Source of the DNA: a virus
Reading direction: 5' to 3' (one strand)
DNA: 41,682 bases
IMG/VR virus record: IMGVR_UViG_3300044808_000007
Coordinates: 1 to 41,682 of that record
In this document: positions 7,958 through 26,865 of the stretch, in pieces
Layout of the letters: each line of letters starts with the position of its first letter
Position numbering within the stretch: the first letter of the stretch is position 1
Notes under the pieces: model-generated
Told to the model about the DNA's origin: nothing
Seen by the model: the letters and a program-made list of their open reading frames with translations, nothing else
The model's database searches: none
Program-made: the position numbers and the translations under genes

Positions 7958-8779
7958 CTAGACCGAAAGCTGGACCACGACGTCGCCTGCGTGACTCTGG
8001 TCCCACGCGGCGTAGATGGCGGTCGTTCTGGGGTCGGCGTGGCCCATCAGCTCCTGCGTCAACCGCAGGTCATGGGAGAGTGCGTAGATGCGCGAGCCGA
8101 AGTAGTGCCGCCCCTGGTGCCCGGTCGCCTCGATGGAGAGGGAGCGCAGGTAGTCGGCGATGACCCGAGAGACGTGCGCCGCCGAGATGTGGTTCCCCTT
8201 CCGGTTCGCCCACAGCCACCCGCGCGCCGGCAGACCGAATACCCGCAGCGCCGCGAGCACTTCAGGGTGCAGGGGGACGGTGCGTTGGTGGCCGCCTTTC
8301 CCCATGACGATGAGCAGCGGCGGGTCGGTGCTGTCCAGTATGTGGGAGCGGTCGAGCCCAGCAATCTCCATCGCCCGGAGCCCCTCGAACGCGGCCAGCA
8401 GGAGCCACGCCTTCATCCTCGGGTCGGCCTTTTCCACAGCGATGCGGAGGTCGTCCTGGTCCATCGGCCGTGGAAGCTGGCGGGGCAGACGCGGCCGGTG
8501 GAGGCGGGCCGTGGGGTCGGCGTCGGTGTGGCCTTCGAGGATGGCCCACTGGTAGAAGCAGGCAAGGTTGCAGACGTGCCAGTACCGGGTTTTGGCGCCG
8601 ACTCCACGCTCGTCTAACCAAGTATCAACGTCGGCTTTGGCTGCATCGAACAGCCGTCGGTCGTCTAGGAAACGCGAGAATGCGTGCAGTGAGCAACCGC
8701 GATGACGGACACTGCGGTCAATGTGCCCCCGCCGTCTCTGGTCCGCCTGGTAGTCACGGATGAGGTCTTCATCTGACAC
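7958..8779 (-). CDS. int: Tyrosine integrase
   Basis: The 273-aa site-specific recombinase integrates and excises the genome by strand exchange through a 3'-phosphotyrosine. Residues 1-100 form the SAM-like core-binding domain (YQWAILEGHTDADPT). The catalytic set is complete: Arg135 (FEGLRAMEIAGL), Lys161 (GKGGHQR), His221 and Arg224 (HQGRHYF), His247 (LMGHADPRTT) and Tyr256 (AIYAAWD). No arm-type N-terminal domain of the lambda kind is obvious and the length is short, as in compact actinophage integrases. It lies 23 bases after the repressor on the same strand. attP could not be located by eye. Confidence 0.95.
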   Translation of the reverse strand: MSDEDLIRDYQADQRRRGHIDRSVRHRGCSLHAFSRFLDDRRLFDAAKADVDTWLDERGVGAKTRYWHVCNLACFYQWAILEGHTDADPTARLHRPRLPRQLPRPMDQDDLRIAVEKADPRMKAWLLLAAFEGLRAMEIAGLDRSHILDSTDPPLLIVMGKGGHQRTVPLHPEVLAALRVFGLPARGWLWANRKGNHISAAHVSRVIADYLRSLSIEATGHQGRHYFGSRIYALSHDLRLTQELMGHADPRTTAIYAAWDQSHAGDVVVQLSV

Positions 8780-9246: not shown

Positions 9247-9264
9247 GGGCTACGTGCGTAGCCC
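9247..9264. promoter_or_regulatory. Inverted repeat enclosing the first early start codon (operator candidate)
   Basis: GGGCTACG-TG-CGTAGCCC is a perfect 8-bp inverted repeat. GTG 9254 lies at its centre and the predicted transcription start falls inside it. It could be a repressor operator, or an RNA hairpin hiding the start codon. Confidence 0.5.
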
Positions 9265-14737: not shown

Positions 14738-15057
14738 TGGGAAGCTGGATTCGCTGTGAGGAATGCACGGTGGAGGTCTACGCCACGACCTCGGACCCGT
14801 TCACAAGGGGCACGTTCTACGCCGTTCACACCCTGAGCGGGGCGGAAGTTGGGCACTACTGCTGCGCTGACCACGCCCAGCTCGGCATCCAAGCGTGGAC
14901 CGACATGCAGCACGAGGGCGCTGACGACGAGGCGGCGGCCGACATCGCCGCTCGGGTTGAGGTGTTCCGCAAGGCGCTCATGGTCGAGCACGGGGACGAC
15001 TGGGACATGGAGACGGTCAGCGAAGCGGCGCACATCTGCGCCAAGGCGGTGGTCTAA
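14737..15057 (+). CDS. Cysteine-containing hypothetical protein, 106 aa
   Basis: It starts at ATG in a TAATG overlap with the previous gene. An N-terminal beta part carries CEEC and HYCCADH, a likely zinc site (residues 7-50). An acidic helical part follows (ADDEAAADIAARVEVFRKAL). No family recognised. Confidence 0.65.
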   Translation: MGSWIRCEECTVEVYATTSDPFTRGTFYAVHTLSGAEVGHYCCADHAQLGIQAWTDMQHEGADDEAAADIAARVEVFRKALMVEHGDDWDMETVSEAAHICAKAVV

Positions 15058-15594
15058 GTGACCCCCCTCCTGCGTTACGGACTCCTCCTCCTGCTCCTGG
15101 TGGCGTGTGCCTCTCCACCCACCCAAGTCGCGGCGACGGATAAGGCCGACGCTCGGAAGGTCGCGGACGAAGCTGAGGCGTTTCGAGCAGACGCTCAACG
15201 ACAGATCGACCAAGCCGAAGCCGCAGTGCGAGAGTTGGAACGGGTCACCGCCGAACAACAGGCGAAGGCGGCTCACGAACGCTCGGCGCGCGCGTCGCGG
15301 TCACGGGTCACGACTCCGCGAGCCAGGACAGCACCTACTCCTCCGGTTGTCTCGGGTGACGTGTGGGGCCGACTGGCTGCTTGTGAGTCAGGGGGCAATC
15401 CCCGCGCCGTTGGTGGCGGCGGGAGGTTCTTCGGGCTCTATCAGTTCACGCTCTCGACGTGGCGGAGCGTTGGCGGGTCTGGCAACCCCATCGACGCTTC
15501 ACCTGCGGAGCAGACAGCACGGGCACAGGCACTTCAAGGGCGGAGCGGCTGGGGTCAATGGCCCTTGTGCAGCCGCCGCCTCGGCCTTCGGTGA
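15058..15594 (+). CDS. Rpf-like transglycosylase lipoprotein
   Basis: The 178-aa protein starts at GTG directly after the upstream stop. Residues 1-17 are a lipoprotein signal (LLRYGLLLLLLVACASP, lipobox LVAC, Cys17). Residues 28-78 form a coiled-coil stalk, followed by a Pro/Thr linker. Residues 101-178 match the Rpf/transglycosylase-like domain: VWGRLAACESGGN (catalytic Glu110), GLYQFTLSTWRSVGG, SPAEQTARAQALQ, GWGQWPLCSRRLGL. Such enzymes cut the glycan strands of actinobacterial peptidoglycan. It lies in the early operon, not in the lysis module, so it would act at the outer membrane face early in infection. Confidence 0.88.
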   Translation: MTPLLRYGLLLLLLVACASPPTQVAATDKADARKVADEAEAFRADAQRQIDQAEAAVRELERVTAEQQAKAAHERSARASRSRVTTPRARTAPTPPVVSGDVWGRLAACESGGNPRAVGGGGRFFGLYQFTLSTWRSVGGSGNPIDASPAEQTARAQALQGRSGWGQWPLCSRRLGLR

Positions 15595-15614
15595 GCGTTC
15601 AGGAAGGAGCGCAA

Positions 15615-15797
15615 ATGACTGGGGACACGCATCAGAGGTTGGCCGAAGTGCTGGACGAGCTCGAGAAGCTGGGCGCTCGAACGCCGTCCTTCAGGATCGC
15701 TGCGTTGTCGCAGCACGAAGCCGAGACGTGGCTGAGGAGTGAGCAGCGCCGGCTCGAGCAGTTGGCGAAGTCAACGGGTGAGCTCCACCTCCCGTGA
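15615..15797 (+). CDS. Small hypothetical protein, 60 aa
   Basis: ATG 15615 is preferred because AGGAAGGAG lies six bases upstream. An in-frame GTG at 15591 would overlap the previous stop in the local style and add eight residues. The protein is helical (QRLAEVLDELEKLGAR, EAETWLRSEQRRLEQLAK). No family recognised. Confidence 0.6.
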   Translation: MTGDTHQRLAEVLDELEKLGARTPSFRIAALSQHEAETWLRSEQRRLEQLAKSTGELHLP

Positions 15798-16258
15798 GTG
15801 CTGAGGCCACCGGGCATGTGTTCAGGTGCTCCCCATTCACGGGGGCCACCTTCGCCTGCCACCTCGCGATCGGTGACAGCGTGAACGACCAGCACCACAA
15901 CGAGTTCTTCATGTCGGTCGGCAACCTCGCGAAGAAGGCGAGGGTCACCCGCAGGAGCGCCCAGACGGCACTACGCAAGCTCGTCGGTGCCGGCTGTCTT
16001 GTGCTGCTCGAGAACGAGGACGGCGAAGTCCGCCGGTACCGATTCGAGTTCTTTCCACAGGCTGTGGTTTACGAGAGCAGGGGGCGTAGAGATTTCGCAC
16101 CCCCTGCGAAATCCACGACCTCTAGGGGGCGCAATGGTTACGCCCAAACCCAAGGGGTAACCCAAATGAAGGCGCGGGGTGCTTCGCACGACGAACACTT
16201 CTCACCCGGCTCGGGTGTTATTCGGCGTTTTCCAAAGGCCGGGAGCGACGACAAGTGA
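15794..16258 (+). CDS. Winged-helix replication protein (probable initiator)
   Basis: The 154-aa protein starts at GTG overlapping the previous stop. Residues 10-85 have the pattern of replication-initiator winged helices: DQHHNEFFMSVGNLAKKARVTRRSAQTALRKLVGAGCLVLLE. The C-terminal 60 residues are basic and unstructured. Several inverted repeats lie in its 3' half (16055-16166), as when an origin sits inside the initiator gene. No helicase or polymerase gene was found in the window, so replication probably uses host enzymes loaded by this protein. Confidence 0.7.
   Translation: MSAEATGHVFRCSPFTGATFACHLAIGDSVNDQHHNEFFMSVGNLAKKARVTRRSAQTALRKLVGAGCLVLLENEDGEVRRYRFEFFPQAVVYESRGRRDFAPPAKSTTSRGRNGYAQTQGVTQMKARGASHDEHFSPGSGVIRRFPKAGSDDK
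16055..16113. promoter_or_regulatory. Cluster of inverted repeats inside the initiator gene (origin candidate)
   Basis: There are three perfect inverted repeats. CCACAG-G-CTGTGG lies at 16055-16067 and is flanked by T runs, giving near-DnaA boxes on both strands. GCAGGGGG...CCCCCTGC has arms 16077-16084 and 16100-16107. GATTTCGCA-CCCCC-TGCGAAATC spans 16091-16113. The last two share bases 16100-16107 and cannot form together. A further GGTTAC...GTAACC pair lies just downstream. Confidence 0.4.
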
Positions 16259-16740
16259 CCCGTCCCCCCACCCTGCCCCGCGACGTACGCGCCGCGCGTG
16301 ACGACCTCGAGGACATCGCCTACAAAGCCCTGCGCTTGGCCAAGGAGCTCCCCGACCTCCACGTCCTCGCCTATGAGCGACAGGTCACCGGAGACGACCC
16401 ACACGTCGCCACCAGCCGGATCGGCTACAGCCTCGACGACGTGGGCAAGGCCGCGGCCCGCGACGCCCTGCGGGCCATCACTGGCGAGCACAACGCCTAC
16501 GGGGCCGCCGCGATTCGCAAGGCCCTCACGGCGCACCTCGCCCGCGTCCAGGGGTTCTTCGGCGGCGAGGGGGCGGACCAGAGCCTGCGGGGGACGCTGC
16601 TCGGCGACGAGTCGGGCGGGGGCGCGCAGCGTGAGCTGACCGAGCTGCTCAAGGCGCGGGAGCGTCGTGAGGCGAGTGGGCAATACACGCCGGCGCGGAC
16701 CGAGCCGCAGCCCAAGCGCGTGCCGGGAGCGGGTGGGTGA
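16255..16740 (+). CDS. Hypothetical early protein, 161 aa
   Basis: It starts at GTG overlapping the initiator stop. Mostly helical (VRAARDDLEDIAYKALRLAKE, IGYSLDDVGKAAARDALRAI, AIRKALTAHLARVQGFFGG) with a disordered C-terminus. It resembles no named family that can be cited with confidence. Being coupled to the initiator, it may be a replication accessory. Confidence 0.68.
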   Translation: MTRPPTLPRDVRAARDDLEDIAYKALRLAKELPDLHVLAYERQVTGDDPHVATSRIGYSLDDVGKAAARDALRAITGEHNAYGAAAIRKALTAHLARVQGFFGGEGADQSLRGTLLGDESGGGAQRELTELLKARERREASGQYTPARTEPQPKRVPGAGG

Positions 16741-16946
16741 CCGTGGAGGTGCTCCGTTCCGCCATCTGCCAGCGCCTCATCGACGCCGGCTACGGCCGGA
16801 TGCCTGATGTGTCTTGGTACGTCCTCGACGCCATCCCCGATGGCTGGGCGAAGCTCGACGGCGAGTGGATACGGCTCCGCCCGCAACAGGACTACGGCGA
16901 CCCCAATGGCGGCAGCGGGCCGCTCTGGACGACCGAGGAGGCGTAG
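16737..16946 (+). CDS. Hypothetical early protein, 69 aa
   Basis: It starts at GTG overlapping the previous stop. It contains VLRSAICQRLIDAGYGRMP and a Trp-rich beta segment (AIPDGWAKLDGEWIRL). Its TAG is followed at once by the first (A/G)TGGCGA start of the repeated series. No function recognised. Confidence 0.62.
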   Translation: MTVEVLRSAICQRLIDAGYGRMPDVSWYVLDAIPDGWAKLDGEWIRLRPQQDYGDPNGGSGPLWTTEEA

Positions 16947-16976
16947 ATGGCGAGCGTGGAAGGGACCCCAATCTGA
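16947..16976 (+). CDS. Leader minigene, 9 codons (MASVEGTPI)
   Basis: ATGGCGAGC begins directly after the previous TAG, runs nine codons, and ends in TGATG that starts the next gene. GGAAGGGA within it serves as ribosome site for ATG 16976. Two other places in the operon repeat this layout, so it is listed as a possible translational-coupling leader. Confidence 0.35.
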   Translation: MASVEGTPI

Positions 16977-17197
16977 TGGGCATGGCCTATGTCGTCCCCT
17001 TCGATGACACCGTCCGACGCTCCAAGGCGTACCCGAACTGCTGGTACTGCCCGTCGTGCGATGCGACGTACACACCCGGCCTGACGTGGGGCTATCGCTG
17101 GTCACCGAGGGGCAGCACGAACCCGAGTGAGGACAGGTGGGCCAACGTCCACAAGAAGGGCGACGAATGCCCGTTCTGCGGAAGGAAGCCAGGCTGA
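16976..17197 (+). CDS. Zinc-ribbon protein, 73 aa
   Basis: It starts at ATG in TGATG, coupled to the minigene before it. It has CWYCPSCDATY and CPFCGRKPG, two CxxC pairs about 40 residues apart that form one zinc ribbon. It ends in TGATG at the methyltransferase start. Function unknown. Confidence 0.65.
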   Translation: MGMAYVVPFDDTVRRSKAYPNCWYCPSCDATYTPGLTWGYRWSPRGSTNPSEDRWANVHKKGDECPFCGRKPG

Positions 17198-17937
17198 TGG
17201 CGACTTTGGTTCCGTACCACGAGGACGGCCAGGTGACGCTCTACAACGCCGACGCCCTCGACTTCATCGCGTCGATCGAGCACTCCGTGGACGCCGTGGT
17301 GACGGACCCGCCCTACGCATCGGGCACCCGCACGGAGGCGTCGAAGTCATCCAGTGGAGCCATGCTCCGTGCTGGCCGGTTCAGCGACCGTCCGCTCGAC
17401 CTCGACCAGATGACCACCACGGGGTTCGTGTGGCTTCTCCGAGCCGTTGCCCGTGGCATCTACCCCAACATGGGGGACGGGCGGTCCTTCCTGTGCTTCA
17501 TCGACTGGCGCCAGTGGCCGAACCTCGTGGGGGCGCTCGAGACGGCCAACCTCCGCATCCAGGGGATGCTCGTCTGGGACAAAGGCCACTTCGGGCTGGG
17601 CAACGGCTTCCGAGGCCAGCATGAGCTGATCTGTCACGCCGCCAAGGGCGTCCCGACCATCGCTGACAAGGGCGTGGGCAACGTTCTCAAGTTCCCACGG
17701 GTCGAGCCCGTCGACCACCCGAGCCCCAAGCCTGTCGGGCTGATGGAGAAGCTCATCGCCACCGTCACCGAGCCTGGAGATCTCATCTTCGACCCTTTCG
17801 CTGGCAGCGGCACGACGCTCCTAGCCGCCAAGAACCTCGGCCGGCGAGCCATCGGCGTCGAGTCTGACCCCCACTACTGCGAGGTGGCCGCGCGGCGGCT
17901 ACGGCAGGAAGTCCTCGACTTCGGAGGTGTGGCGTGA
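17197..17937 (+). CDS. DNA adenine/cytosine-N4 methyltransferase, beta class
   Basis: The 246-aa protein starts at ATGGCGACT. Motif IV comes first (VDAVVTDPPYASG, DPPY at 37-40) and the SAM-binding motif I last (LIFDPFAGSGTTLLAAKNLGRRAIGVE, residues 197-222), the order of beta-class amino-methyltransferases. HPSPKPVGLMEKLI is the usual motif X region. It would methylate the amino group of adenine or cytosine in DNA. No matching restriction gene is adjacent, so it is probably an orphan that protects phage DNA. The last codons GTGGCGTGA overlap the repeated start motif. Confidence 0.9.
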   Translation: MATLVPYHEDGQVTLYNADALDFIASIEHSVDAVVTDPPYASGTRTEASKSSSGAMLRAGRFSDRPLDLDQMTTTGFVWLLRAVARGIYPNMGDGRSFLCFIDWRQWPNLVGALETANLRIQGMLVWDKGHFGLGNGFRGQHELICHAAKGVPTIADKGVGNVLKFPRVEPVDHPSPKPVGLMEKLIATVTEPGDLIFDPFAGSGTTLLAAKNLGRRAIGVESDPHYCEVAARRLRQEVLDFGGVA

Positions 17938-17950
17938 ACAGGAGGCAGAA

Positions 17951-18130
17951 GTGAGCGAGGACACGACAATGACCGAACGGCTCTACAGCACCACCGACGC
18001 CAGCGTGTGGGCCAAGGAGTTCTGTGCCCTGTTCGGCATCTACACGCCCGAGGGTGTGGTGGAGGATGGCGAGGGGCTAATGATCGGATGGTTCGCCAAC
18101 GCCATCGAAACGGCCAAGAGGATCGGCTGA
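17951..18130 (+). CDS. Small hypothetical protein, 59 aa
   Basis: It starts at GTG five bases after GGAGG within the 12-mer CAGGAGGCAGAA, which recurs before the gene at 18661. Acidic and helical (ASVWAKEFCALFGIYTPEGVVED, WFANAIETAKRIG). Unknown. Confidence 0.6.
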   Translation: MSEDTTMTERLYSTTDASVWAKEFCALFGIYTPEGVVEDGEGLMIGWFANAIETAKRIG

Positions 18131-18133
18131 CCA

Positions 18134-18331
18134 ATGGCGACCAAGGAAGGTGACCCGATGAGCAATGTGGAGCGGCAACGCGCGCTGCACGAGGCCAAGG
18201 CCGACCTCGACAAGCGCCTACTCGTCTGCTCCAACTGCGGCAAAGAGGGCGTGCGTTCCCGCCGTCCCGGTGCCATCTGCACGCTCTGCCATGCCGAGAA
18301 CTGGGAGCCGTTCCGAGAAGGGTGGGACTGA
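18134..18331 (+). CDS. Zinc-ribbon protein, copy A of duplicated module
   Basis: The 65-aa protein starts at ATGGCGACC. After a variable helical N-terminus it has VCSNCGKEGVRSRRPGAIC, then TLC, a CxxC...CxxC zinc ribbon, ending WEPFREGWD. An internal ATGAGC at 18158 has its own GGAAGG and could be a second start. Its last 120 bases match 19501-19620 in 113 positions. Function unknown. Confidence 0.65.
   Translation: MATKEGDPMSNVERQRALHEAKADLDKRLLVCSNCGKEGVRSRRPGAICTLCHAENWEPFREGWD
18212..18331 (+). repeat. 120-bp duplicated 3' gene module, copy A
   Basis: It matches 19501-19620 with seven differences, four of them silent. It covers the last 39 codons plus stop. Upstream sequences are unrelated, and both copies are followed within five bases by another (A/G)TGGCGA start. 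Confidence 0.9.
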
Positions 18332-18334
18332 ACC

Positions 18335-18637
18335 GTGGCGACCGTGGTTGGCATCCAAGACATGCGGCACGACCTGGGCGAGTTCCTGCCCGACATGACC
18401 AGGCGGGAGAAGGTCAAGACCCTGCTGCGCTTCTACTGCCCCATCACCAAGGGCTGGGCCGACCCGCTGGTGTCACGGTTCGAGCGGTGGCGGTACCCGA
18501 TGCCGAAGCCGGACGTGGACACCATCGCACGCCACTTCGGGTGGGTCGAGGGCGTGCCCCATTGCCCCATCGGTGAGGTCTGCGAGCACGGCTGGGTGCT
18601 GACCCAAGAGGCGGCAGAGGGCGGAGGGTTGGTCTGA
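18335..18637 (+). CDS. Hypothetical early protein, 100 aa
   Basis: It starts at GTGGCGACC, three bases after the previous stop. The sequence (MRHDLGEFLPDMTRREKVKTLL, FYCPITKGWADPLVSRFERW, HCPIGEVCEHGW) has Cys and His residues that might hold a metal ion. No family recognised. Confidence 0.65.
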   Translation: MATVVGIQDMRHDLGEFLPDMTRREKVKTLLRFYCPITKGWADPLVSRFERWRYPMPKPDVDTIARHFGWVEGVPHCPIGEVCEHGWVLTQEAAEGGGLV

Positions 18638-18664
18638 GTGGCGAGCAGGAGGCAGAACCAATGA
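18638..18664 (+). CDS. Leader minigene, 8 codons (VASRRQNQ)
   Basis: GTGGCGAGC begins directly after the previous TGA. The frame ends in ATGA, overlapping ATG 18661. Its middle is the ribosome site AGGAGG for that gene. The peptide resembles the N-terminus encoded at 19119 (MATNEQNQ), as if a gene start had been cut off and reused as a leader. Confidence 0.35.
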   Translation: MASRRQNQ

Positions 18665-18795
18665 GCGGCCCGAAGTGCTCAGAGTGCGACCGACTCATCG
18701 GGCGCAACGTCGAGAACCAGTGGGTCCACTACCACGACCTGACGCCCGTGTGTCAGCCGTCAGGGTGGATTCGCATGAGCGAGCGGAGGCCGTGA
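18661..18795 (+). CDS. Small CxxC protein, 44 aa
   Basis: It starts at ATG eight bases after GGAGG. It has KCSECDRLIGRN and HYHDLTPVC, a likely single zinc site. It ends in TGATG with the next motif start. Unknown function. Confidence 0.58.
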   Translation: MSGPKCSECDRLIGRNVENQWVHYHDLTPVCQPSGWIRMSERRP

Positions 18796-18935
18796 TGGCG
18801 AACCTGACCCCCGAGCAAAAGGTCGAGTTGGAGGCGCTGAACCGTGCCTTCGATGAGTGCGCCTGCGAGGACGAGTGCGACGAGACGTGCGCCTGGTGCC
18901 AAATGGGCGGGCGCTGTTGGGCGGAGGTGGCCTGA
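18795..18935 (+). CDS. Small cysteine-rich protein, 46 aa
   Basis: It starts at ATGGCGAAC. Helical N-terminus (LTPEQKVELEALNRAFDE), then CACEDECDETCAWCQMGGRCW with six Cys. Probably a metal-binding or disulphide-rich small protein. Unknown. Confidence 0.58.
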   Translation: MANLTPEQKVELEALNRAFDECACEDECDETCAWCQMGGRCWAEVA

Positions 18936-18936
18936 G

Positions 18937-19119
18937 GTGGCGAGGCTGATTGAAGAACTGCCGTGGCTCATCGGGACATTGGCGTTACTCGTCTGTGCGT
19001 GGACGCTGTGCGGTCGGTTCTATGCCCGCATCTACCACCACAAGCTGCGCTGGTGGGCCGTGCCGTTCAGTCACGGTGCGCTGCTGTTCGGCAAGCGTCT
19101 GAACGATTGGGAGAAGTGA
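18937..19119 (+). CDS. Small membrane protein, 60 aa
   Basis: It starts at GTGGCGAGG, one base after the previous stop. Residues 9-27 (PWLIGTLALLVCAWTLCGR) are one membrane helix, followed by a basic, aromatic tail (FYARIYHHKLRWWAVPF). It might alter the host envelope; unknown. Confidence 0.6.
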   Translation: MARLIEELPWLIGTLALLVCAWTLCGRFYARIYHHKLRWWAVPFSHGALLFGKRLNDWEK

Positions 19120-19274
19120 TGGCGACCAACGAGCAGAACCAAGCCGAGCAGGACGTTCACGACCTACCGCCCACTGACGGCACAGGCCACCCTCACATGC
19201 TCGACCGCGACTGCTGGTGTGAACCGCTGGTCAGCGGTCGCACGGTGATTCATCGGGCGAATCGAGGCGGCTGA
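19119..19274 (+). CDS. Small acidic protein, 51 aa
   Basis: It starts at ATGGCGACC in TGATGG. Sequence MATNEQNQAEQDVHDLPPTDGT, then HPHMLDRDCWCEPLVSG, with a CWC near the end. Unknown function. Confidence 0.52.
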   Translation: MATNEQNQAEQDVHDLPPTDGTGHPHMLDRDCWCEPLVSGRTVIHRANRGG

Positions 19275-19399
19275 TGGGGAGGCTGAGGTTGCTACTTGCT
19301 GCTGCGCTCTTGCCGAAGGACTGGCACATCGTGCGGGTGGAACGTCCCGCCCTGGGAAGCGGTCCCCTCACCGACTACATCGTGGAGGTCTACGGCTGA
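19274..19399 (+). CDS. Small protein with hydrophobic N-terminus, 41 aa
   Basis: It starts at ATGGGGAGG, a near-copy of the repeated start motif. RLRLLLAAALLPKDW is hydrophobic but short. It ends in TGATGGCGACC at the next gene. Unknown; low support beyond its coupled position. Confidence 0.45.
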   Translation: MGRLRLLLAAALLPKDWHIVRVERPALGSGPLTDYIVEVYG

Positions 19400-19620
19400 T
19401 GGCGACCGCGGACGTGACCCATCCTTGCGGGTGTCGCACCCGAGGTGACGAGACGATGGACTACTGCGGCGGTCCTCCGGGTCACCGGGACCGAACCCCG
19501 AAGCGGCTACTCGTCTGCTTCAACTGCGGCAAGGAGGGCGTGCGCTCCCGCCGTCCCGGTGCCGTCTGCACGCTCTGTCAGGCCGAGAACTGGGAGCCGT
19601 TCCGAGAAGGGTGGGACTGA
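19399..19620 (+). CDS. Zinc-ribbon protein, copy B of duplicated module
   Basis: The 73-aa protein starts at ATGGCGACC. A distinct N-terminus (HPCGCRTRGDETMDYCGGPPGH) adds its own Cys/His cluster. It then has VCFNCGKEGVRSRRPGAVC followed by TLC, 36 of 39 residues identical to the protein at 18134. This is a 5'-different, 3'-shared paralogue pair. Unknown function. Confidence 0.65.
   Translation: MATADVTHPCGCRTRGDETMDYCGGPPGHRDRTPKRLLVCFNCGKEGVRSRRPGAVCTLCQAENWEPFREGWD
19501..19620 (+). repeat. 120-bp duplicated 3' gene module, copy B
   Basis: It is 113/120 identical to 18212-18331, from the AAG codon to the TGA. Homology stops abruptly at the 5' edge, where the two genes differ entirely. 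Confidence 0.9.
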
Positions 19621-19623
19621 CCG

Positions 19624-19746
19624 ATGGCGAAGCTGAGGCGCACCCGTTGCGACCGCTGGTGGTGCTGGCGTGGGCGCTATCTCGCCATGCGATTCTGCAA
19701 GAAGCATGGGCACCAAATCCTGCTCGGTGGAAAGGTGAAGCCATGA
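19624..19746 (+). CDS. Small basic aromatic protein, 40 aa
   Basis: It starts at ATGGCGAAG, three bases after the previous stop. RTRCDRWWCWRGRYLAMRFC resembles the protein at 20021 (RAARWWCRWHRLY), so the two may be diverged copies. Overlaps the next start by four bases. Unknown. Confidence 0.5.
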   Translation: MAKLRRTRCDRWWCWRGRYLAMRFCKKHGHQILLGGKVKP

Positions 19747-20018
19747 CTGAGGACCACGAAGCGAATCCGAAGATGGCCGACGACGACGCCCGTGAGGTGG
19801 TCGAAGGGGCCATCGGGCCGACCACTGCCGCTGACGTGTTCGAGGCCCTGACGGACAGAGGGTTCGTCGTCATCCCCAGGAAGTTGCTCTACCACGTTGA
19901 GGCCATGCTGCGGACGCTGAACCGGAGCGGCATCCGTCTCGATGAGGACTTCCCGGAAGCCGAGTTCCAGGAAGCCAAGTCGGCGCTGGAGGACTTCATG
20001 TTCCCGGAGGTGTCCTGA
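19743..20018 (+). CDS. Hypothetical protein, 91 aa
   Basis: It starts at ATG in ATGA with GGAAAGGTGAAG upstream, one of the few genes here without the repeated start motif. Sequence AREVVEGAIGPTTAADVFEALTDRGFVVIPRKLLYHVEAMLRT is a mixed alpha/beta domain. Unknown function. Confidence 0.62.
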   Translation: MTEDHEANPKMADDDAREVVEGAIGPTTAADVFEALTDRGFVVIPRKLLYHVEAMLRTLNRSGIRLDEDFPEAEFQEAKSALEDFMFPEVS

Positions 20019-20020
20019 CC

Positions 20021-20137
20021 GTGGCGAGCATGGACACCGACCCGAAGTACACCCGTGCGGCCCGCTGGTGGTGTCGCTGGCACCGGCTCTACACGAGCCA
20101 CAACCCGTGCTGCACCCGAGCGCAGGAGTTCAAGTAG
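20021..20137 (+). CDS. Small basic aromatic protein, 38 aa
   Basis: It starts at GTGGCGAGC, two bases after the previous stop. Sequence RAARWWCRWHRLYTSHNPCC has three Cys and two His, enough for a zinc site, and is similar to the protein at 19624. Unknown. Confidence 0.48.
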   Translation: MASMDTDPKYTRAARWWCRWHRLYTSHNPCCTRAQEFK

Positions 20138-20311
20138 ATGGCGGAGCAGATGGACGACCAGGCACCGCCCGAGGTGGGCGAGTACCAGCGTGACCTGCGC
20201 CGGATGCGGCGCTCGATTCACGCTGCGCTGTCCGAGTTGGGTGTGCCCGACGAGAGCTATCCCGCTCCCGTCGCCAACGCCGTGCGGATTCTGCGAGAGG
20301 CGCTGGGCTGA
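20138..20311 (+). CDS. Small helical protein, 57 aa
   Basis: It starts at ATGGCGGAG directly after the previous TAG, a one-base variant of the repeated motif. RDLRRMRRSIHAALSELGVPDESYPAPVANAVRILREAL is a two-helix pattern with a basic face. Unknown. Confidence 0.55.
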   Translation: MAEQMDDQAPPEVGEYQRDLRRMRRSIHAALSELGVPDESYPAPVANAVRILREALG

Positions 20312-20596
20312 GTGGCGAACGTCAACCTGCTCAACAAGTTCACCCAGGAGGTGCTGGCCGAGGCGCAGATGGTGTCCGACATGCTGCCCGGTCAGTTCGG
20401 CCTGTCAGTGTCCGCTGACTCCGACGTGGTGCTCTCCCTCCCCGATGGGGATTGGGTCGGCATCCGCATGTACGGACTCGACCAGGCCAAGCGCAGGTGG
20501 GTGGCGTGGCGGGGTTCGTTGCCGTTCGATGAGGGCAGCCAGTGGCCGACGTTGGGCGCTGCCGTCGCCCACTTCACCGAAGGATGGGACCGCTGA
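20312..20596 (+). CDS. Hypothetical protein, 94 aa
   Basis: It starts at GTGGCGAAC directly after the previous TGA. An alpha/beta sequence (LLNKFTQEVLAEAQMVSDML, LSVSADSDVVLSLPDGDWVGIRM, RRWVAWRGSLPF, TLGAAVAHFTEGW) suggests a compact fold. No family recognised. Confidence 0.62.
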   Translation: MANVNLLNKFTQEVLAEAQMVSDMLPGQFGLSVSADSDVVLSLPDGDWVGIRMYGLDQAKRRWVAWRGSLPFDEGSQWPTLGAAVAHFTEGWDR

Positions 20597-20841
20597 TGGC
20601 GAGCGAGGAGCAGACCCCGAATCGCACCCCCGGTCGAGACGACTTCGGCCGTTGGGACCCGATGGACGAGCCGACAGACGGCATGGTCATCGAGCACCTG
20701 GCCCTCAACCACGGGCGCATGGTCTGGAGTCGGCGCCGACAGCGGTTGGAGCACTCAACCAAGCGACCCATCGCCGCGCCACGTTGGCCGTGTCCGTTGT
20801 GCGGCAGTCCGTTCTGCTACGGCCCGAAGGGATGGAACTAA
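20596..20841 (+). CDS. Small CxxC protein, 81 aa
   Basis: It starts at ATGGCGAGC in TGATGG. Acidic N-terminal half (GRDDFGRWDPMDEPTDGMV), basic middle (WSRRRQRLEHSTKR) and a C-terminal WPCPLCGSPFCYGPKG with three Cys. Unknown. Confidence 0.58.
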   Translation: MASEEQTPNRTPGRDDFGRWDPMDEPTDGMVIEHLALNHGRMVWSRRRQRLEHSTKRPIAAPRWPCPLCGSPFCYGPKGWN

Positions 20842-20843
20842 GC

Positions 20844-21497
20844 ATGGCGAGCCTGGGCGGCGCGCGCGACCCGCTCGTTCTGTCGCTTTGTGACCGAACT
20901 GGCGTCATGGTCGAACCGTGGGCTGAGGCTGGATTCCGCACGCTCTGTGTGGACATCCAGCACGACGGACGAGAAGACGGCTTCGCCACCCGCAAGGTCG
21001 GGGCTGACGTGCGGACATGGCTACCTCCCTTGGACGACTACGCCATCGTGTTCGCCTTCCCGCCCTGCACCCACCTGGCGCAGTCGGGCGCCCGCTGGTT
21101 CGCTCAGAAGGGACTTGGCAAGCTCATCGAGGGCGTCGAGCTGGTCGAAGCCTGCCGGCGTATCTGCGAGTGGTCGAAGGCCCCGTGGATGCTGGAGAAC
21201 CCCGTGGGCCAGCTCTCGACGTACTGGCGCAAGCCCGATCACTACTTCGACCCCTACGAGTACGCGGGCTACGCCCTGGTGGACGAGGCGTACACGAAGA
21301 AAACCTGCCTCTGGGTGGGCGAGGGGTTCGTCATGCCGACCAAGCGGCCGGTGGAGGTCACCGAGGAGAAGCCCCGTATCCACTGGGCCAAGAACGACGC
21401 GGGCCGTGGGGACGTGCGGAGCGTCACGCCGTCAGGGTTCGCACGCGCCGTGTTCGAGGCCAACGTTGAGCAGATCAGAGCAAGGAGCGTGGCGTAG
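20844..21497 (+). CDS. Phage-type cytosine-5 DNA methyltransferase
   Basis: The 217-aa protein starts at ATGGCGAGC. Order of motifs: VLSLCDRTGVM and VDIQHDG for SAM binding, FAFPPCTHLA with the catalytic PPC (Cys75), WMLENPVGQLS as the ENV-like motif VI (residues 118-120), then a C-terminal part with YTKKTCLWVGEGF. This is the short form common in phages, with a small target-recognition region. It would methylate cytosine C5 and is the third DNA methyltransferase of the early operon. The few motifs fit, but a base-modifying variant cannot be excluded. Confidence 0.82.
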   Translation: MASLGGARDPLVLSLCDRTGVMVEPWAEAGFRTLCVDIQHDGREDGFATRKVGADVRTWLPPLDDYAIVFAFPPCTHLAQSGARWFAQKGLGKLIEGVELVEACRRICEWSKAPWMLENPVGQLSTYWRKPDHYFDPYEYAGYALVDEAYTKKTCLWVGEGFVMPTKRPVEVTEEKPRIHWAKNDAGRGDVRSVTPSGFARAVFEANVEQIRARSVA

Positions 21498-21892
21498 TGG
21501 CGACCAAGGTGCGGTGCCCAAAGTGCAATGGGTTCGGCGAGATCGAAGTCGAGGACGAGGAGCTGCCCTGTGAGGCGGAGATCGTCGTCGGGACTGAGGA
21601 GCCGATCCACTGTTACGCCAGCCGGAAGCACCCAGGTTGGCCGCACATGGCGATCCTCGCCTGGCCCTGCGCCGCCTGTGGTGGGTTCGAGGAGCACCAC
21701 GACACCTGCGCCGTCTATCTGGCCGATGAGGTGCGCTCGGAGAACGTCTGGGTGTCGACGTGGTGGTACTGGAACGACGGCGACCTGACCGTCACCCGCG
21801 ACCTGGCCGGGCTCGGACAGACGTGGCGCGATGCCTTCCAGCCCGACTCGCCCTACGCGGTGGGCGGCAAGTACCACCGGGCGGTCGCATGA
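21497..21892 (+). CDS. Cysteine-rich hypothetical protein, 131 aa
   Basis: It starts at GTGGCGACC in TAGTGGCGA, the last copy of the repeated start motif. It has CPKCNGFGEIE (a DnaJ-like CxxC), CYASRKHPGWPH, and CAACGGFEEHHDTC, suggesting two zinc ribbons, and a Trp-rich C-terminus (VWVSTWWYWNDGD). Unknown function. Confidence 0.68.
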   Translation: MATKVRCPKCNGFGEIEVEDEELPCEAEIVVGTEEPIHCYASRKHPGWPHMAILAWPCAACGGFEEHHDTCAVYLADEVRSENVWVSTWWYWNDGDLTVTRDLAGLGQTWRDAFQPDSPYAVGGKYHRAVA

Positions 21893-21996
21893 TCGAGGAC
21901 CGGGCCAGCAGGCCGATCACAACGAATGGGAAGCCTGCTGGCCCGACCTCTACGCCCCATGATGACAACCCCTCGGCGCTACATGCCGAGCGATGA
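21889..21996 (+). CDS. Possible small protein, 35 aa
   Basis: It starts at ATG in ATGA and ends overlapping the next start. The sequence MIEDRASRPITTNGKPAG is polar and unstructured. It is supported only by the unbroken chain of stop/start overlaps. Confidence 0.4.
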   Translation: MIEDRASRPITTNGKPAGPTSTPHDDNPSALHAER

Positions 21997-22196
21997 CGTT
22001 GGCAGCTGTACGGGGTGACGCCGTGAAGTGGTGCCGACACTGCGACGCCGCCCCTGTCCGCCGGCGCGGGCTGTGCGACTCCTGCTCGAGGTTCCTGCTT
22101 CGCAACGGCGTCCTGCCCGACCGCGCCACATTGGTCCGTCGTGAGCGACGCAAGGACGAGCGACGCCATATGCGAGCATCCCCAGCCAGTCCTTGA
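21993..22196 (+). CDS. Small zinc-ribbon protein, last gene of the early operon
   Basis: The 67-aa protein starts at ATG in ATGA; GTG at 22023 is an alternative. WCRHCDAAPVRRRGLCDSCSRFLLRNGVLPDRATLVRRE is a CxxC...CxxC ribbon with a basic tail, similar to phage HNH N-termini and WhiB-neighbour small proteins. Followed by a 100-bp gap. Confidence 0.6.
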   Translation: MTLAAVRGDAVKWCRHCDAAPVRRRGLCDSCSRFLLRNGVLPDRATLVRRERRKDERRHMRASPASP

Positions 22197-22295
22197 CAGT
22201 CGGGTATGGTGACATGCGTCAACGGTAGGAGTGTGCCCTAGGTGTCGTAGCGAACGACCCGCCACTCCCCAATCTGCGCCCGGAGGTTTCGTCCA
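22197..22295 (+). promoter_or_regulatory. Intergenic leader with structured RNA, possible late promoter region
   Basis: This is the first real gap after a 13-kb operon. TTGACA lies at 22193-22198 and TATGGT at 22205-22210; six bases apart, they cannot be one promoter. A nested inverted repeat follows: GGAGTG (22228) with CACTCC (22263), enclosing GTCGT-AGCGA-ACGAC (22244-22258). GGAGG lies ten bases before the next start. Confidence 0.35.
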
Positions 22296-22514
22296 TTGAC
22301 GTCGACCGACGGGCGCTTTCGCGCGTCCGAGCTCACACCCCTCCAACGCGCCGAAGCCCTGGCCCGTCGCTACTTCCCCGACGCCAAGGTCTCGTCCTCC
22401 TTCGGCTCGGTCGTCGTTGTGGAGACCGACGCCGTCCCACCGTGGACCTCGATCCTGGTGAGCAACCCCTCGCTGCACGGACAGCGCCCGACCTCGACAC
22501 GCAGGGAGAACTGA
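22296..22514 (+). CDS. Hypothetical protein, 72 aa, first gene of the fibre module
   Basis: It starts at TTG after GGAGG. Residues 8-60 (FRASELTPLQRAEALARRYFPDAKVSSSFGSVVVVETDAVPPWTSILV) look like a small alpha/beta protein. It is separated by one base from the next gene. No family recognised. Confidence 0.58.
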   Translation: MTSTDGRFRASELTPLQRAEALARRYFPDAKVSSSFGSVVVVETDAVPPWTSILVSNPSLHGQRPTSTRREN

Positions 22515-22515
22515 C

Positions 22516-22902
22516 ATGGCAACCGGACTCGCTGCTGCCGTCGCTGCTGCGTGGCTCGACGCGCTGGGCAACGCATCGAACTACACCGCCCCCACCGCGT
22601 TCTGGCTCAAGCTGCACGTCGGCGACCCCGGCGCCGCGGGCACGTCCAACGCGGCGACCGAGACGACCCGCAAGCAGGTCTCCTTCGGGGCGGCGTCGGG
22701 TGGGGCGATCTCCAACGACGTCGCTGTCACCTGGACGAACGTGGCCGGGACCGAGGACTACACCCACTGGTCGGCGTGGGACGCTTCGACGGCGGGCAAC
22801 TTCCTGTGCAGCGGCGTCATCACGGCAAACGCCGTCACAGCGGCGGACCAATTCTCGCTGCCCATCGGCGACGTCGATTTGACCCTAAACGTCGCTTCCT
22901 GA
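22516..22902 (+). CDS. Virion/tail fibre-associated protein, 128 aa
   Basis: The sequence AAVAAAWLDALGNASNYTAPTAFWLKLHVGDPGAAGTSNAA, then TRKQVSFGAASGGAISNDVAVTWTNV, with HWSAWDASTAGNFLCSG, follows a pattern common in phage structural proteins (WLKLHxGDPGxxGTxN...TRxxVxFGAAxxG...SxWDAxxxGxFLxSG). It is all-beta after the N-terminal helix. It probably forms part of the fibre or tip complex with the next gene. Exact position in the virion is unknown. Confidence 0.7.
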   Translation: MATGLAAAVAAAWLDALGNASNYTAPTAFWLKLHVGDPGAAGTSNAATETTRKQVSFGAASGGAISNDVAVTWTNVAGTEDYTHWSAWDASTAGNFLCSGVITANAVTAADQFSLPIGDVDLTLNVAS

Positions 22903-26774: not shown

Positions 26775-26865
26775 CGGGGGGTTTCAACCGCTGGGTCGCC
26801 ACCACGACATCACCCACACGCAGATTTGCGCATGAGTGCACAAGCGGCCGGATAGGGGGTGCACA
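26775..26865 (+). promoter_or_regulatory. Gap before the terminase genes, weak promoter candidate
   Basis: TTGCGC (26827) and GATAGG (about 26851) are about 18 bases apart. AGGGGG follows as ribosome site for the small terminase. A GTGCAC pair flanks the segment. Support is weak; cos or pac signals, if any, cannot be told by eye. Confidence 0.25.

Follow-up and report, generated by a model that had tools for sequence, protein, structure and literature searches.

The question raised by this locus is why a run of small genes, encoding proteins that are mostly unrelated to one another, should begin with the same nucleotides at one junction after another. The window that was analyzed is a whole IMG/VR virus record of 41,682 bp with a GC content of 66%, and it encodes a large terminase, a portal, a head protease and a major head protein. 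A Pfam scan additionally identified an Erf recombinase and, encoded on the minus strand, a tyrosine integrase. Given this combination of head and terminase genes with a tyrosine integrase and Erf, the virus is probably a temperate tailed phage, and since the relatives of its MCP in bacterial genomes are mostly from Streptomyces and Microbacterium (38-44% identity), we infer a putative actinobacterial host. The array of small genes occupies 4.9 kb directly upstream of tail-type genes (Table 1). No tRNAs were found in the window, and Rfam gave no match. The junctions within the array are of a different type from those of the neighboring early genes: outside the array, between positions 9254 and 16740 of the window, RTGACC starts in 4-nt overlaps (RTGA) are common.

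The sequence-only reading had reported 15 frames that begin with exactly RTGGCGA and two more that differ from it by one base, and this count was reproduced in full (all of the numbered elements in Table 1, the two variants being those at 19274 and 20138). All fifteen frames do start with the motif, but two are very short, the one at 16947 having 9 codons and the one at 18638 having 8, and each terminates at the start of the gene that follows. The encoded proteins, which had been described as otherwise unrelated, are mostly so, the exceptions being the zinc-ribbon paralogs 18134 and 19399, which have a 39-aa C-terminus in common that is 92% identical, and 19624 and 20021, which are weak paralogs. 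A null model did not refute the observation: among the array genes of at least 25 codons (n = 19), 13 have motif starts, whereas codon shuffling gave 0.12 on average and never more than 3 in 20,000 trials. Elsewhere in the window, none of the 62 genes called by our own, crude gene caller, for which start positions outside the array are approximate, has a motif start (Fisher 7e-11 versus the array). The arrangement is also exceptional among other viral loci, as the window has 13 stop-adjacent RTGGCGA starts per 5 kb versus no more than 3 in 241 loci, and 10 of 20 consecutive called genes begin with the same hexamer versus no more than 5 in 170 loci processed with the same caller.

Table 1. Positions in the window of the array, its start-associated elements and related features.
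Feature	Position	Strand	Remarks
Phage_integrase protein	7958-8779	-	Pfam match
Array of small rightward genes	16947-21892	+	element or one-base variant at all but two gene junctions
Element 1, ATGGCGAGCGTGGAAGGGACCC	16947-16968	+	opens 9-codon frame 16947-16976; its stop, TGA, overlaps the ATG of gene 16976-17197; SD -11.6
Element 2	17197-17218	+	start of N4/N6 DNA methyltransferase 17197-17937 (PF01555)
Degenerate element, GTGGCGTGAACAGGAGGCAGAA	17929-17950	+	before GTG of 17951-18130; lacks A7 and C22
Element 3	18134-18155	+	start of zinc-ribbon protein 18134-18331
Duplication copy 1, 130 bp	18212-18341	+	92% identity; finishes on the right with RTGGCGA
Element 4	18335-18356	+	start of 18335-18637, 100 aa, no family match
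Element 5	18638-18659	+	opens 8-codon frame 18638-18664, overlapping the ATG of 18661-18795; SD -10.0
Element 6	18795-18816	+	start of 18795-18935
Element 7	18937-18958	+	start of 18937-19119, hydrophobic, likely membrane protein
Element 8	19119-19140	+	start of 19119-19274
Element 9, one-base variant ATGGGGA	19274-19295	+	start of 19274-19399
Element 10	19399-19420	+	start of zinc-ribbon protein 19399-19620, paralog of 18134-18331
Duplication copy 2, 130 bp	19501-19630	+	92% identity to copy 1
Element 11	19624-19645	+	start of 19624-19746
Array gene without element	19743-20018	+	begins ATGACTG, 4-nt overlap with previous gene
Element 12	20021-20042	+	start of 20021-20137, weak paralog of 19624-19746
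Element 13, one-base variant ATGGCGG	20138-20159	+	start of 20138-20311
Element 14	20312-20333	+	start of 20312-20596; sole site without C22
Element 15	20596-20617	+	start of 20596-20841
Element 16	20844-20865	+	start of DNA methyltransferase 20844-21497 (phrog_757)
Element 17	21497-21518	+	start of 21497-21892

The repeat had been described as a heptamer covering the start codon and codons 2 and 3. It does span the start, but the conserved element is longer, being a gapped, asymmetric and bounded sequence of 22 nt, RTGGCGA-N4-GR-N8-C, that reaches codon 8 and lies in gene orientation, on the coding strand only, at every site. In pairwise comparisons of the 17 sites, identity was conserved at columns 1-7, 12-13 and 21-22, with a weaker signal at columns 8-11 (z 3.8), and was no higher than in codon-shuffled genes at columns 14-20, 23-30 and 31-45; upstream of the start, only an enrichment of purines was apparent. 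Column +22 is C at 16 of the 17 sites (P 6e-9), a signal (-log10 P of 7.9) that exceeds the maximum of 4.5 among the best columns of 2000 codon-shuffled sets, while column +12 is G at 15 sites and column +13 is a purine at all 17. Elsewhere in the genome, C22 is found in 14 of 51 cases and G12 in 12 of 51. Because identity is raised at columns 8-13, 21 and 22 but not at columns 14-20 and 23-45, the profile is that of a recognized site with defined ends and not that of a decaying common descent.

The constraint on the element is at the level of nucleotides, because codon 2 is GCG in every MA start of the array (GCG accounts for 33% of Ala codons genome-wide) while codon 3 varies, having A as its first base at 16 of the 17 sites whatever the residue. 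A protein-level explanation was rejected on the same grounds, which also count against the reading that the element has no function, the 5' ends of the genes being alike through tandem duplication or through amino-acid selection for an MA- N-terminus. Duplication does occur here, as evidenced by the two paralog pairs and by the related leaders at 17929 and 18638, which have CAGGAGGCAGAA and RTGAGCG in common. However, the similarity is punctuated and does not decay from the start codon, and in paralogs 19624 and 20021 C22 is found at the same distance from the start even though the homologous cores are shifted by 12 nt with respect to it. We therefore strongly disfavor the absence of function and consider it very improbable.

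Among the array genes, homologs in other records were found for the two methyltransferases only, and the motif is absent from all of the inspected homologs of both. Their N-termini read MTPYY.., MNTPYY.., MKGTVVSLCD.. and similar, and in most of the homologs from annotated phages the start codon is part of a 4-nt overlap (RTGA) with the gene before it. The N4/N6 methyltransferase of the window instead starts M-ATLV-PYH, and the other (20844) has 13 residues before SLCD compared with 5-10 in four homologs; in both enzymes the added or replaced N-terminal residues spell the element. In the N4/N6 enzyme the Tyr common to its homologs is His (CAC), which gives C22, although His is also found in one homolog (L107). 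Because the homologs are without the motif and the methyltransferases of the window carry it as an N-terminal addition, the element belongs to the place and not to the gene, independently of gene family.

This addition of the element to genes that are without it elsewhere would also be expected if the 22-nt element were a seam for the swapping of cassettes, through a site-specific recombinase or annealing by the phage's Erf protein, with each seam supplying a working start. Such a joint had been one of the options in the sequence-only reading, and several features of the array lend it weight. The 130-bp duplication ends on the right at RTGGCGA; it covers a zinc-ribbon C-terminus that is joined to different N-termini, and different genes follow the two copies. 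Erf is encoded by the phage itself, the out-of-frame mini-frames at 16947 and 18638 resemble seams that were joined in the wrong frame, and the repeats of cluster O mycobacteriophages do recombine (PMC4351075). The joint is nevertheless weakened because columns 14-20 and 23 onward are unconserved, since homologous exchange would leave contiguous conservation. The left end of the duplication is away from any element site, and the only recombinase found was the Phage_integrase protein, probably an ordinary integrase. Between -25 and +40 of the junction starts there is no consensus fold of the kind that inverted-repeat recombination sites, such as integron attC, would be expected to give. The mini-frames, the decayed copy at 17929 and the duplication fit either cassette seams or an operator at every junction, and we view recombination as a serious rival to the latter but, on balance, rather unlikely.

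Most of the array starts had been thought to have no Shine-Dalgarno (SD) sequence. This proved to be incorrect, as every one of the 17 sites has an anti-SD pairing energy between -5.8 and -11.6 kcal/mol. The mean is -8.4 kcal/mol, compared with -6.2 in other called genes and -3.5 in stretches drawn at random from the region. The SD-like stretches are usually within the last codons of the preceding gene and have no conserved sequence. Contact with the preceding stop, which had also been remarked upon, is tight at every site, ranging from a 1-nt overlap to a 3-nt gap, and the register with the SD and previous stop holds at all 17 sites, including the two mini-frames of 8-9 codons. Because the site is in register with the SD and start even in those mini-frames, the reading we favor, while regarding it as somewhat short of probable, is that the repeat is a start-overlapping operator common to one operon, most likely read in the mRNA and acting on translation initiation.

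Under this proposal, one late-early operon of a temperate, actinophage-like siphovirus has the 22-nt site across the start codon and codons 2-8 in almost all of its genes, and the array genes would be translationally coupled, with a stop no more than 3 nt from the start and the SD in the preceding gene. A trans-acting factor, probably a phage-encoded protein, would bind the initiation regions of all of the array genes and would either repress or license translation of the whole gene set together. More tentatively still, we suggest that a phage-encoded, sequence-specific factor may read a 22-nt start-embedded operator common to an accessory operon, such that entering genes must acquire the element as an extra stretch at the N-terminus. 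Of the options first put forward, a sequence-specific site at the start codon is supported by the bounded pattern, the nucleotide-level constraint and the graft onto the methyltransferases. No sigma-70-like promoter was found within 15000-22600, which we count in favor of a translational operator. Counting against it are the lack of a consensus RNA structure (-25 to +40 around the junction starts) and the lack of a difference in accessibility between array starts and other starts, and a reading based on an RNA hairpin or on start accessibility was rejected for these reasons.

One precedent for such a factor is RegA of T4, a single factor that targets about 30 mRNAs in their initiation regions, at sites that overlap the AUG and are without RNA structure (PMC3014915). 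The array site is alike in overlapping the start codons of many mRNAs without RNA structure, but it is GC-rich and strict, in contrast to the RegA sites, which are A+U-rich and poorly conserved (PMC3014915). No match to RegA was found among the 20 proteins of the window that were scanned with Pfam. A phage small RNA, which had also been proposed, has no clear candidate and was not supported: the best-pairing windows outside of the array are coding, and the intergenic stretch 26776-26805 ranks 4th of 14,630 and is unconvincing. That stretch, between an HNH-like gene and a probable small terminase gene, pairs well as RNA with many of the 17 sites and is a weak small RNA candidate.

Translation could also be affected without a dedicated factor, if codons 2-8 directly favored initiation or reinitiation at the coupled stop-start junctions. 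The tight junctions and strong SDs at every site are in keeping with such a cis-acting enhancer, and GCN and A-rich early codons help initiation. On the other hand, a simple enhancer would tolerate GCC or GCT and have no need of C22, the array starts gain nothing in accessibility, and none of the 62 called genes elsewhere uses the element even though coupled genes exist there. We consider this explanation improbable.

The conserved blocks, columns 2-7, 12-13 and 21-22, are approximately one helical turn apart, which counts against a translational operator in that a DNA-binding protein would fit such spacing no less well. Because of this spacing, a transcriptional operator stays a serious rival, although an unlikely one in our estimation: a repressor would bind the duplex at the junctions and block transcription of the operon in the lysogen, and the overlap with starts would be a by-product of junctions of only a few bases. 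The site is asymmetric and present in one orientation in many copies within one operon, the phage has a tyrosine integrase and is probably temperate, and at 16947 and 18638 the site precedes the likely own start of the gene, all of which would agree with this view. The register with the SD and start, however, is not required by a DNA operator and yet is present at 17 of 17 sites. No repressor was found, the nearest wHTH protein (15794-16258) having only a sub-threshold match to HTH_36. The stoperators of cluster A phages, which are bound by the phage immunity repressor, are likewise asymmetric, oriented with transcription and present in many copies in temperate phages. They differ in being transcriptional, spread through the genome and without register with starts, whereas the sites described here are all within 4.6 kb, and in their 13-bp consensus, GGTGGMTGTCAAG. 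That consensus has no match at the 17 sites and is found elsewhere, on both strands, only with 2-3 mismatches. With up to 3 mismatches the L5 stoperator consensus has 41 matches versus 23 expected, scattered and often within genes, which is probably an effect of codon composition.

Among the repeats known from actinophages, the array most closely recalls the SAS of cluster K mycobacteriophages and cluster EF Microbacterium phages (PMC3203893; PMC7302621), which has a 13-bp asymmetric consensus, GGGATAGGAGCCC or GGGAAAGGACCCC (PMC3203893; PMC7302621), and the function of which still needs experimental verification (PMC12699233). Both are short asymmetric repeats in 10-19 copies at the translation starts of unrelated non-structural genes and are oriented with those genes. 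However, SAS is upstream of the start in the ribosome-binding position and contains the SD, whereas the array repeat begins at the start codon and reaches codon 8, its conserved columns being +1 to +22. The array thus resembles SAS but lacks its defining features, and the SAS consensus was matched in the window no more often than expected (40 matches with up to 3 mismatches versus 44). Intergenic repeats of clusters EC, EG, EI and O similarly precede small genes, in regions that are mosaic and mainly non-structural; those of EC are 21-30 bp and those of EG 14-22 bp upstream of starts, and those of EG and O are palindromic (PMC7302621; PMC4351075), but none is described as covering the start codon. 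Our literature searches found no phage repeat that overlaps starts. A second array was not found via relatives (terminase, MCP, methyltransferases, tail gene, small ORFs and 396 genomes of one bacterial phylum), nor among the matches listed in a pattern scan of IMG/VR.

The element of this array has the appearance of a putative control site, or joining site, common to the genes, in a layout that we did not find described for other phages. Start-tied repeats recur in actinophages, but this one is inside coding sequence, so that proteins with no other relation to one another are constrained at their N-termini and the repeat is open to silent mutation. Were it an operator, a whole accessory gene set, possibly anti-host, could be controlled or swapped by compact means, and it would offer a way to find more such arrays. 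As minor observations on the proteins themselves, CxxC zinc-ribbon-like motifs are present in several of the small array proteins (16976, 18134, 18661, 19399, 20596 and 21497), and downstream of the start at 18134 there is a second in-frame ATG, at 18158, with an SD of its own.
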